Shown in pieces: positions 3,694 through 30,089 of a stretch of 50,925 nucleotides of DNA. Position numbers and translations under genes: made by a program. A model generated the notes under the pieces. The model was not told where the DNA came from. It was given only the letters and a program-made list of their open reading frames with translations, and made no database searches. The stretch comes from a virus, in the IMG/VR virus record IMGVR_UViG_3300025806_000037, positions 1 to 50,925 of that record; one strand, 5' to 3'. The stretch's first letter is position 1. Each line of letters starts with the position of its first letter.

Positions 3694-4089
3694 TTATATA
3701 GAATGTGAAAAGTATTTATTCTCGATTGACTTAACTTTATTTAAAATGTCAAGTCTATGGCCATGTTTATCAATTGAGCATTCCATACCAGTTGCTTCGG
3801 CACGCCTCTTAAGTTCAGCGCTTGCATCAATTGAAAACAAAATATACTTTTTGTTCTGATTACATGACTGACATTTGGCTTTTATACTTTCATATACCGC
3901 AACACCATCAGTGTTTGGCCTGTAATAATCTAAGAGCACAATCATGTTTTCTTTTGTGTTTGTTATATAATCAACCGCTTTATCAACATCGTTAAAACAT
4001 AATATATCTGTTTTAGCATACTCTGATGTAAAGATAAACGAATTGACTGCCAACGCTATGTCAGAATCGTCTAATAATACTATTTTCAT
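3694..4089 (-). CDS. stand-alone response-regulator receiver (CheY-like) domain
   Basis: A 131-residue single-domain REC protein. All conserved positions are present: acidic pair D7 D8 (LLDDSD), phosphoacceptor D54 (VLLDYYRPNTDG), S86 (LFSIDAS) and K108 (SIDKHGH). There is no output domain, so it probably acts by binding partners, as CheY or Spo0F do, perhaps intercepting a host two-component phosphorelay. A T4-type late promoter lies 20 bases upstream and tandem anti-Shine-Dalgarno repeats beyond it (see 4094-4178), so it looks like a late gene. Domain assignment is firm; target is unknown. Confidence 0.85.
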   Translation of the reverse strand: MKIVLLDDSDIALAVNSFIFTSEYAKTDILCFNDVDKAVDYITNTKENMIVLLDYYRPNTDGVAVYESIKAKCQSCNQNKKYILFSIDASAELKRRAEATGMECSIDKHGHRLDILNKVKSIENKYFSHSI

Positions 4090-4108
4090 TTTAATACCCT
4101 CTCTGAAG

Positions 4109-4116
4109 TATTTATA
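4109..4116 (-). promoter_or_regulatory. T4-type late promoter TATAAATA
   Basis: Exact TATAAATA on the minus strand. By T4 spacing, transcription would start near 4103, giving a leader of about 14 bases that begins at the ribosome-binding site of the receiver-domain gene and excludes the upstream complementary repeats. Confidence 0.7.
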
Positions 4117-4130
4117 ATGATCTTAAAACC

Positions 4131-4178
4131 ATATACCGTAGAGGGTATATTGAAGCAAATATACCGTAGAGGGTATAT
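4131..4178 (-). repeat. two tandem 20-bp hairpins complementary to a downstream ribosome-binding site
   Basis: Two identical 20-base copies (4131-4150, 4159-4178), each ATATACC and GGTATAT arms around a six-base loop. As RNA each contains AUACCCUCU, the exact nine-base complement of AGAGGGUAU (4094-4102) just upstream of ATG 4089. They can therefore mask that ribosome-binding site on read-through RNA. Confidence 0.75.
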
Positions 4179-4202
4179 TGGAATGCATAGCATTGAGATA
4201 GT

Positions 4203-4394
4203 TTATCGGTTTCCCAATTTACCAGTCCAGCCTTTGCCTTTAAGAACAAAGTTACCGCCTGTGATAATCTTAACTAAAGAAGCGTTGCCGCACTCCTCAC
4301 ATACCGTCAACGAATCATCTTTCATTGACTGTTTTATTTCAAATACATCAACATCACAAATGTCTTCTGTACATTTATAAGTATACGTTGCCAT
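4203..4394 (-). CDS. FmdB-type zinc-ribbon protein
   Basis: Sixty-three residues starting MATYTYKCTED. Cysteines at 8, 13, 32 and 35 (CEECG) form a small zinc ribbon, and the C-terminal IITGGNFVLKGKGWTG is the hallmark tail of FmdB-family regulatory-like proteins in phages. Biochemical role is not established; a nucleic-acid or protein-binding ribbon is likely. Confidence 0.8.
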   Translation of the reverse strand: MATYTYKCTEDICDVDVFEIKQSMKDDSLTVCEECGNASLVKIITGGNFVLKGKGWTGKLGNR

Positions 4395-5788: not shown

Positions 5789-5817
5789 ATTATATCAAAG
5801 AACTGCAGTTGTGTATA
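5789..5817 (-). promoter_or_regulatory. early promoter, TATACA class
   Basis: TATACA, 17 bases, TATAAT on the minus strand, then a leader with AATTGAGTTAAGGAA ending at ATG 5758. This weaker -35 (AACTATATACA) recurs at several sites and forms a second promoter class. Confidence 0.8.
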
Positions 5818-16400: not shown

Positions 16401-17491
16401 AGTTGAAATCCCGTAAATTCTTCTTCGTTAACATCTTTACTTATACCGCCAGTGGTATAACTAGATATTTCAGTTTCTTGAGGTGCAACTTGTACATTAC
16501 CACCTGCTATCCATTTTTTAGTCCAAGGCAAAGGATCAGATCCACCAGGGTATTTAGTAGTTAGACCTACGGATTTCATTCGGCGATGTGCTAACCATTC
16601 TATATAAGCGCATAACATTGACTCGTTAAGACCAACCATTGAACCATCTTTAAAAAGGTACTTTGCCCATTCTTTTTCTTGTTCTGCAGTCTGTTCGTAT
16701 ATCTCAACACATTGGTCATGACACTCATCGCGAATCTTTGCGAAGTCTTCATCTTCACGCGGCAAACTCTTAATCATGAATACCGTTGAAGCAAGGTGAA
16801 GATTCTCATCTCGACAAATCAACTTTATGATTTTAGCGTTACCTTCCATTGACTTTTTGGTTTCAGCAAATGCCCATGAACACGCAAACGAAACATAGAA
16901 ACGTAAACCTTCAAGAGAATTGGTTGCCTGTAGTGCTAACCATAATAGCTTCTTATGTTCATACGTTCCAAACAATGAACTATCAACCGCAGCCTGTTCG
17001 TTATGGCGTGCAAGATTATCATAGTGCCTTGAAATTGACTCAGCACAATCAGTGATTTCCTTTATATCAGTAATACCATCAAATACCTCAGACGGATTAG
17101 AATATATGTTACGTATAATATGTGTGTATGAACGGCTATGAATTTGTTCGCTAAATACCCAAGTAGTTATCCAATTTTCTAATTCAGGTAAAGATGCCAA
17201 AGGGCCAAACACTGCTGAAGGACATCTGCCTTGAACTGAGTCTAATACAATTTGTCGTTTTAAGTTACTAGTAAAGATATGCTGCTCATGGTTGGATAAT
17301 GCTTTAAAGTCTTTAGCATCTTTCGATACGTCGATTTCTTCAGGCATCCAAAAGAATCCTAATTGTGATTCTGTAAAGGACTCAAGTGTGCGATACTTTT
17401 GTATATCGTATCGTGCAATTGCGACCGGCTCGTCAAAGAACATATTCTTGGTGATACTATCATTTGTATTTACATCAAAAGATTTAAACAT
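16397..17491 (-). CDS. nrdB: ribonucleoside-diphosphate reductase, beta subunit (class Ia)
   Basis: A 364-residue R2 protein carrying the diiron-tyrosyl radical. Ligands D84, E115, H118, E194, E229 and H232 and radical Y122 (SEQIHSRSY) are all present, the first four at the same numbers as in E. coli. The C-terminal tail (EEEFTGFQL) resembles the R1-docking peptide. It is a single base from acb1 and overlaps the glutaredoxin gene. No intron or intein interrupts it. Confidence 0.95.
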   Translation of the reverse strand: MFKSFDVNTNDSITKNMFFDEPVAIARYDIQKYRTLESFTESQLGFFWMPEEIDVSKDAKDFKALSNHEQHIFTSNLKRQIVLDSVQGRCPSAVFGPLASLPELENWITTWVFSEQIHSRSYTHIIRNIYSNPSEVFDGITDIKEITDCAESISRHYDNLARHNEQAAVDSSLFGTYEHKKLLWLALQATNSLEGLRFYVSFACSWAFAETKKSMEGNAKIIKLICRDENLHLASTVFMIKSLPREDEDFAKIRDECHDQCVEIYEQTAEQEKEWAKYLFKDGSMVGLNESMLCAYIEWLAHRRMKSVGLTTKYPGGSDPLPWTKKWIAGGNVQVAPQETEISSYTTGGISKDVNEEEFTGFQL

Positions 17492-17940: not shown

Positions 17941-19028
17941 AATTTGCAACTCGGGCAATCATCTTCATCCAATTCTTCACTGACAGGATTATCATTGGCT
18001 TCTTCGTATGTTAATTCGCCAGCACCATCATAAGTATTAAAATAATATAGCTGTTTGCCTCCATATTTATAAAAAGTTAATAAGTCACGAATCAGAGTTT
18101 TTAAAGGCATTTTGCCATCTTCGTAGTGCTTAGGGTTATACGATGTATTAACACTTATGCCTTGGTCAACAAACTTCTGAATGACCGCACATATTTTTAA
18201 ATAACCTTCAGGCGATTTCTGATCCCATAATAAATCGTATTTATTCTTTAACTTACGGATCTCAGGAACAACTTGTGCCAATATACCATCTTTTGATTGT
18301 TTGATTGAAACTAAGGCTCTTGGCGCTTCAATACCGTTCGTCGAGTTAATTACTTGAGATGAAGTTTCAGAAGGCATGATAGCCATAAGAGTACTATTAC
18401 GAATCCCATGTTCATTAACTTCATTACGTAATGCAGCCCAATCCATTTTTAAGTTATTACCAACTAATGAATCAACATCTTTCTTATAAGTGTCAATTGG
18501 AAATAAACCTTGTGAATACTTAGTTTCACGTGACCATTCACACGCCCCTTTTTCTTTAGCAAGATTGATAGAAGATTTAATCAAATAGTAAGACCATGCT
18601 TCAAGCCATTCATGTAAATGTGACAATCCTTCTTCAGTAATGCCTTGATAAGTATAACCGTTTTTAGCAAGCCAATACGCTAAGTTATTAATACCAACAC
18701 CAAGTGGACGACGACCCATAGTTGCAATGTATGCTGCTTTAACTGGATAATCTTGATAATCAAGTAATGAATCTAAAGCCCGAACTGACAAGTCACATAT
18801 CTCTTCGAACTCAGAAGGATCACTAATGTTACCCCAATTAATTGCTGATAACGTACACAATGCTATTTCACCGGATTCATCATTAATATCATCAAGAGGT
18901 TTTGTCGGCAAATCAATTTCTGCGCAATTGTGTATTAGTATACCATTAGCAAAAAAGTTACTAGTTTCAGGAACGGTAATGTCATACACGTTTTCAGTGT
19001 AATCAAGTGTTCTTATTTTAATACCCAT
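17937..19028 (-). CDS. nrdA-c: split NrdA, C-terminal part: intein C-half + C-extein
   Basis: A 363-residue protein. Residues 1-34 are an intein C-half: block F (ENVYDITVPETSNFFANG) and block G (ILIHN) ending at the splice junction HN|C. From C35 onwards it is NrdA: CAEIDLPTKPLDD, GEIALCTLSAINW (the redox cysteine), the radical-transfer pair in QLYYFNTYDG and the C-terminal DDCPSCKL. C35 corresponds to the thiyl-radical C439 of E. coli NrdA, so the enzyme is inactive until trans-spliced. Good ribosome site AAGGAAG before ATG 19028; overlaps the endonuclease gene by 11 bases. Confidence 0.93.
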   Translation of the reverse strand: MGIKIRTLDYTENVYDITVPETSNFFANGILIHNCAEIDLPTKPLDDINDESGEIALCTLSAINWGNISDPSEFEEICDLSVRALDSLLDYQDYPVKAAYIATMGRRPLGVGINNLAYWLAKNGYTYQGITEEGLSHLHEWLEAWSYYLIKSSINLAKEKGACEWSRETKYSQGLFPIDTYKKDVDSLVGNNLKMDWAALRNEVNEHGIRNSTLMAIMPSETSSQVINSTNGIEAPRALVSIKQSKDGILAQVVPEIRKLKNKYDLLWDQKSPEGYLKICAVIQKFVDQGISVNTSYNPKHYEDGKMPLKTLIRDLLTFYKYGGKQLYYFNTYDGAGELTYEEANDNPVSEELDEDDCPSCKL

Positions 19029-19737: not shown

Positions 19738-19749
19738 GATTGCCTCATT

Positions 19750-19806
19750 GGTAGGTAGAGTTATTTCTATAGTTTATTTATACAAACTGAAATCTCTCTA
19801 CCTACC
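19750..19806 (-). promoter_or_regulatory. late promoter enclosed by an 11-bp inverted repeat
   Basis: Arms GGTAGGTAGAG (19796-19806 on the minus strand) and CTCTACCTACC (19750-19760) pair perfectly. TATAAATA at 19775-19782 sits in the loop. The second arm ends four bases before the GAGG ribosome site of the endonuclease. Late transcripts would lack the first arm. Confidence 0.7.
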
Positions 19807-29469: not shown

Positions 29470-30034
29470 CTTTCTTTGTCCCGCCACGTTTCTTTTCTAA
29501 TTCAGCTTTCTTTACAGCCGGCAGGATCTTTTTCGCTATACGGTCGATAGCGCCTTTTTTAGCATCAACACGTTTTTCGAGTGCTTGACGTTGAGAAAAT
29601 GACAAGTCTTCTTTGGACTTGTTCTTTAAAATCATTTTCTCAACTGCTTTACGCGCGCCTTTACGGGCACGAGCTTTTAATTTTTCTGGAGATGCGATCT
29701 TCTTTTCGGCGCGTTTTTTGCCAATAGCGATCTTTGCTTTGTTCTTACGGAAGGTTTGCTTTGCTTTCATGCGTTGTTTTAAATCCAACGCTTCGTCCAA
29801 CGATTCATATAACTCTGGAAAAAATTCTTTAATATCGCTTGTGTCCATACTGTATTCTGGACCTTTAAGAAACCTTAATACGTCTTTCTTCTCGCCAGTG
29901 ATATAAGCTTGAGTTTCTCCATCATGCTTAATTTTAATCTTGTATTTTCTTTCAGCGGTTTTAATATCTTCGCCGGTATGATCAACGTCTATAGTTACTT
30001 TCTTTTCGACCAACGTTTCTTTAAAGGTTTTCAT
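29459..30034 (-). CDS. highly basic internal-head-like protein
   Basis: ATG 30034 gives 191 residues starting MKTFKETLVE, a capsid-targeting-like peptide with L-V-E at 8-10. After an acidic/neutral N-terminal third, the chain is extremely Lys/Arg-rich (DLKQRMKAKQTFRKNKAK, KLKARARKGARKAVEKM) and ends in KKRGGTKKDEK. Composition fits a DNA-condensing virion protein like T4 IPI-III. The late promoter and an SD-masking stem (30044-30089) precede it. A start five codons upstream (ATG 30049) lacks a ribosome site. Confidence 0.75.
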   Translation of the reverse strand: MKTFKETLVEKKVTIDVDHTGEDIKTAERKYKIKIKHDGETQAYITGEKKDVLRFLKGPEYSMDTSDIKEFFPELYESLDEALDLKQRMKAKQTFRKNKAKIAIGKKRAEKKIASPEKLKARARKGARKAVEKMILKNKSKEDLSFSQRQALEKRVDAKKGAIDRIAKKILPAVKKAELEKKRGGTKKDEK

Positions 30035-30043
30035 TAGGCAATG

Positions 30044-30089
30044 TCCCATCTATTATAAGTTTCTGATGATTTATTTATAATAGATAGGA
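30044..30089 (-). promoter_or_regulatory. late promoter overlapping one arm of an SD-masking stem
   Basis: Arms of 11 bases, ATCTATTATAA (minus strand, 30085-30075) and TTATAATAGAT (30058-30048), extend through a U-G and three further pairs so that the GGGA ribosome site (30044-30047) is paired. TATAAATA at 30072-30079 overlaps the first arm; a late start near 30066 removes that arm and frees the site. Confidence 0.75.

Follow-up and report, generated by a model that had tools for sequence, protein, structure and literature searches.

A duplicated anti-Shine-Dalgarno hairpin upstream of a late promoter suggests a temporal translation switch at a receiver-domain gene of a T4-like phage

Genomic context of the receiver-domain gene

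The window, meaning the whole stretch of 50,925 nucleotides that was analysed (IMG/VR record IMGVR_UViG_3300025806_000037), is a T4-like phage fragment of 51 kb whose minus strand carries nearly all genes, and a UvsX-like recombinase, a DNA ligase, and a polynucleotide kinase are encoded among them. Its near relative is a single IMG/VR contig of 77.9 kb, which is 99.95% identical over the 13.9 kb compared. The 27 kb by which this contig extends past the window contain genes for the prohead protease, major capsid protein, tail tube protein, sliding clamp (gp45), and late sigma factor gp55. A marine origin of the phage is a guess drawn from distant cyanophage relatives.

The gene under study (3694..4089, minus strand) encodes a 131-aa protein consisting of a single receiver domain (Pfam Response_reg, E=7e-6, just below the curated cut-off), which retains the acidic pair D7/D8 together with D54, S86, and K108. 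Its AlphaFold model is of low confidence (pLDDT 50) and has the alternating beta-alpha order. Upstream on the same strand lies a zinc-ribbon gene (Zn_ribbon_8; 4203..4394), the transcript of which would enter the leader of the receiver gene. Searches for relatives of the receiver gene and the kinase gene returned only the 99.95% identical contig beyond weak or distant matches, namely a single genome match at 27% for the receiver gene and distant homologues at 40-43% for the kinase gene; a neighbouring gene had one distant phage match. Since the leader has no diverged relative in the searched collections, no covariation can be counted at 4090-4180. No Rfam family matched above its gathering threshold anywhere in the window.

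Tandem hairpins complementary to the ribosome site

Two 22-nt repeats (ATATACCGTAGAGGGTATATTG; 4131-4152 and 4159-4180), identical at 22 of 22 positions and 28 nt apart from start to start, occupy the leader and read CAAUAUACC-CUCUAC-GGUAUAU on the minus strand. The proximal repeat forms the hairpin AUAUACC-CUCUAC-GGUAUAU (4131..4150, minus strand; 7-bp stem at 4150-4131, -6.6 kcal/mol), with the anti-Shine-Dalgarno (anti-SD) sequence AUACCCUCU at 4148-4140, and the distal one forms AAUAUACC-CUCUAC-GGUAUAUU (4158..4179, minus strand; 8-bp stem at 4179-4158, -6.4 kcal/mol), with AUACCCUCU at 4176-4168. These are the only two copies of AUACCCUCU on the minus strand of the window, and a window search for the 16-nt repeat core with up to three mismatches likewise found these two places only. 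Each copy is exactly complementary, over 9 nt, to the ribosome site AGAGGGUAU (4102-4094, minus strand), which precedes the ATG at 4089-4087. The initial annotation had described two repeats, each with an exact nine-base anti-SD, and this description is confirmed, the repeats measuring 22 nt.

When leaders and genes were swapped, a complement of at least 9 nt between positions -16..-1 of a gene and a 100-nt upstream leader occurred in 0.2% of pairs, and for the receiver-gene SD it occurred in 4 of 2530 windows. The 9-nt SD/anti-SD match therefore exceeds chance.

Late promoter and transcription of the leader

A late promoter of the T4 type, TATAAATA, is located directly 5' of the SD (4109..4116, minus strand). 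Its position at 4116-4109 implies a T4-type start near 4103, which is 3' of both anti-SD copies, and the late RNA would lack the pairing strand. The location of a late promoter between mask and SD, also claimed initially, is thus borne out. Across the window, TATAAATA occurs seven times on the coding strand and never on the other; the raw count is not above chance (7 versus 8.6 expected), and only strand and position are. Five of the seven copies lie 19-37 nt ahead of a start codon, a placement for which approximately 5% of positions qualify. Given these strand and position statistics, and since the near-identical contig encodes gp55, TATAAATA very likely works as a late promoter in this phage.

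The upstream gene run is served by a predicted TG-extended sigma70-type early promoter, TATACA-17-TATAAT (5789..5817, minus strand). Read-through into the leader is plausible because this promoter at 5817-5789 is followed by no called minus-strand terminator up to the receiver gene (region searched, 6000 to 3500).

Predicted masking of the ribosome site

Folding predicts that opening the region from SD to AUG costs 10.8 kcal/mol in the read-through RNA, 4.3 kcal/mol when the hairpins are removed, and 1.7 kcal/mol in the RNA starting at 4103. In the best read-through fold, an upstream strand pairs with the SD and start region: the distal hairpin is kept, while the proximal copy pairs with the SD over 9 bp and is followed by UUCA-UGAA pairing at the start codon. 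This masked fold is predicted at -33.7 kcal/mol, compared with -28.0 kcal/mol when both hairpins are closed, and in the folded ensemble the SD is paired to the proximal copy in approximately 78% and to the distal copy in approximately 21%. None of 70 foreign leaders masked the receiver-gene SD equally well (own leader 10.8 kcal/mol; foreign mean 3.9, sd 1.6). Dinucleotide shuffles of this CCCTCT-rich leader gave 6.4 +/- 2.5 kcal/mol, with 12 of 100 reaching the observed 9.0, and the masking energy is partly explained by base composition. Masking of 8-10 kcal/mol is attained by 5-9% of control viral genes; by itself the energy is less striking and ranks the receiver gene no higher than the upper ~5-9%.

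Recurrence of the layout in the window and in other viral contigs

A second case in the window is an 11-bp stem, AUCUAUUAUAA/UUAUAAUAGAU (30048..30085, minus strand), which carries TATAAATA in its 5' arm (30079-30072) and is predicted to hide the SD of a gene starting at 30034 with MKTFKE; its masking is 12.1 versus 3.8 kcal/mol, a value reached by 2 of 100 shuffles. A third, GGUAGGUAGAG/CUCUACCUACC (19738..19806, minus strand), is likewise an 11-bp stem, holds TATAAATA in its loop (19782-19775), and precedes a GIY-YIG homing endonuclease gene (19737), with masking of 10.8 versus 3.7 kcal/mol and 1 of 100 shuffles reaching it. At gene 15994, a 10-bp hairpin, TATTCCATTA/TAATGGAATA (16026-15999, minus strand), lies directly over the SD with AATAAATA on its 5' side, a AATAAATA-plus-stem layout like that of T4 gene 49.

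L044 and L061, which are other viral contigs, carry CCCTCT, TATAAATA, and AGAGGG ahead of a GIY-YIG gene in the same order as here, with two compensatory pair changes (CATTGA/TCAATG to CACTAA/TTAGTG). Among 70 distinct sites with CTCCTT, TATAAATA, and AAGGAG plus a start codon, 13 had perfect stems of 12-16 bp, compared with 0.8 expected from partner swapping. Contigs L187, L217, L275, L288, L192, L294, and others have such perfect SD-masking stems with TATAAATA in the loop, e.g., CTCCTTGGTTTTATAAATAACATAGAACCAAGGAG, and a compensatory change of a G-C to an A-T pair distinguishes L187 from L275. The window cases and the stems in viral contigs together indicate that the arrangement of mask, TATAAATA, and SD is real and scattered.

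The adjoining 27 kb contained no strongly masked late promoter, the best value being 3.0 kcal/mol at 18916. Unselected late-promoter genes of viral loci reached at least 6 kcal/mol no more often than controls (12.5% versus 12.7%), so masking was dropped as a general rule of late promoters and the mask is taken to belong to a subset. Among 81 stretches with two CCCTCT copies before TATAAATA, only the receiver leader had a full SD and start codon; no second tandem anti-SD followed by late promoter and SD was found, and the earlier remark that the duplication is unusual holds for the stretches searched. Leaders elsewhere that contain two CCCTCT words (L024, L037, and others) are not equivalent, as their second copy lies past the promoter in a local hairpin.

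As a separate observation, L024, L037, L058, L073, and their relatives carry leaders of the form ATACCCTCT..CGGTTTTA..TTATAAATAG..ACCCTCTTAGAGGGTG ahead of large proteins of up to ~2,400 aa; the words resemble the receiver-leader repeats, but the hairpin is local and 3' of the promoter.

Comparison with T4 leaders

Among the closest known systems is T4 gene e (lysozyme), for which the mechanism and a 100-fold effect have been documented (PMC3014915). As predicted here, its SD is hidden in read-through RNA and TATAAATA just 5' of it yields a late leader that is short and open. The late parts are closely similar (T4, TATAAATACTTAGGAGGTATTATG; here, TATAAATACTTCAGAGAGGGTATTAAAATG), and the spacing between late promoter and SD is similar. 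The single mask strand of gene e belongs to one local hairpin and overlaps the late promoters within it, whereas the mask of the receiver gene lies at least 24 nt upstream of the promoter, folds into a hairpin of its own, and is present in two copies. The SDs of I-TevI, I-TevII, I-TevIII, segB, and Aeh1 mobE are also sequestered in read-through RNA and free in late transcripts (PMC2988022), and the SD-hiding layout at the window's GIY-YIG gene (19737) resembles these leaders; the receiver leader differs from them in that its gene encodes a receiver-domain protein and its mask is duplicated. T4 49 and soc are late genes within early transcripts with a hidden SD (PMC3014915), but each has one mask.

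The same masking script, run on T4 over its initial 90 kb, placed e, 49, and I-TevII among the five most strongly masked genes, in agreement with the published accounts (PMC3014915, PMC2988022). The low score of soc (2.1-2.2 kcal/mol) indicates that the script is not perfectly sensitive.

A proposed temporal switch and alternative explanations

On these grounds, we consider it fairly probable that the leader is a temporal translation switch of the T4 gene e type. Early or middle RNA running through from the upstream genes would include both hairpins, one of which, usually the proximal, would open so that its AUACCCUCU can bind AGAGGGUAU, joined by UUCA-UGAA pairing at the start codon; this pairing is proposed to block ribosome loading. 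RNA polymerase in its gp55 form would initiate at TATAAATA late in infection and produce a leader of ~14 nt, GAGAGGGUAUUAAAAUG, which lacks the mask and from which the receiver-domain protein would therefore be made. The read-through, the transcript start, the translational silence, and the backing-up of the first copy by the second are inferred; a T4-type mechanism at this gene is probable, judged from its sequence. Silent early read-through RNA and open late RNA had been suggested at the outset, and the suggestion is supported by the fold, the promoter statistics, gp55, the early promoter, and the absence of a called terminator, with T4 e and I-TevII agreeing as positive controls in the same script. 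It counts against the switch that the anti-SD copies would first be locked in their own hairpins during transcription.

The hairpins might instead act as 3'-end or RNA-stability elements, or as a weak terminator or processing site of the zinc-ribbon transcript, with an incidental SD match. They do start ~24 nt past the stop codon (4203) of the zinc-ribbon gene, and hairpins past stop codons are common in phages. However, an intrinsic terminator has a G+C-rich stem followed by a U-run, whereas neither hairpin has a U-run and each stem contains only two G-C pairs; no minus-strand terminator was called, a canonical one (ggggatcTTAATTgatcccc-TTTTTTTT; L009) exists elsewhere in the phage after gp23, and the exact 9-nt SD complement would be left unexplained, making this reading improbable. 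An equally doubtful alternative is that a small palindrome was recently and neutrally duplicated in tandem and has no greater regulatory role than a chance leader. The 100% identity of the copies across 22 nt would fit such an event, as would the frequency with which same-dinucleotide shuffles mask this purine-rich SD, but the exact 9-nt complement (0.2% by chance), the late promoter precisely between mask and SD, and the reappearance of this layout at genes 30034 and 19737 all argue otherwise.

Less probable still is a role of the palindromes at the DNA level, as operators to which a repressor of the late promoter would bind. The predicted transcript start lies within a third palindrome of weaker form (AATAC-N10-GTATT; 4093-4112), both copies are near-perfect palindromes of which the SD region is a degenerate inverted copy, and I-TevI autorepression at its own late promoter is a known precedent (PMC2988022). 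Nevertheless, the spacings of 38 and 28 bp give no helical phasing, the other ATACC-N6-GGTAT sites of the window lie in coding sequence away from late promoters, and there is no candidate regulator.

The mechanism of the proposed switch is known from T4 (PMC3014915, PMC2988022) and is not new; novelty lies solely in the doubled mask. A self-folding, two-copy mask could operate through contact of the CUCUAC loop with the SD, opening of the hairpin, and exchange of partners, the second copy tightening the silence or tuning it by dose, an idea that we put forward tentatively and consider rather unlikely. If true, the T4 late-leader switch would exist here in a new form, and the masked gene would encode a late single-domain response regulator carried by a phage. 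The switch proposed above would extend the gene e mechanism to a signalling-type gene of an uncultured T4-like phage, with the doubled mask offering a simple natural setting in which to ask whether tightness depends on copy number. The sandwiches of mask, TATAAATA, and SD in unrelated viral contigs (stems of up to 16 bp) provide a ready set with which to gauge the spread of late-gene silencing.

Other repeats in the window

Four early promoters (1126-1098, 2123-2095, 34793-34765, and 47840-47812, minus strand) share an inverted repeat, TTGACATGG[A/C]GTCAATA, which overlaps the -35 box and is followed by TTGATATAAT; we presume that it may be a promoter/stem-loop cassette similar to the PeSLs of T4-type phages. 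Palindromes of the form ATACC-N6-GGTAT with at most one mismatch (16443-16458 and others) number 9, compared with 1.2 expected, and are mostly within genes. Finally, a 36-bp leader repeat ending in AGATCTACAAATTGAGTTAAGGAATA (minus strand) is found ahead of several genes at ~97% identity (14143-14107, 34292-34224, 35144-35109, 50484-50449, and a copy near 7.7 kb).
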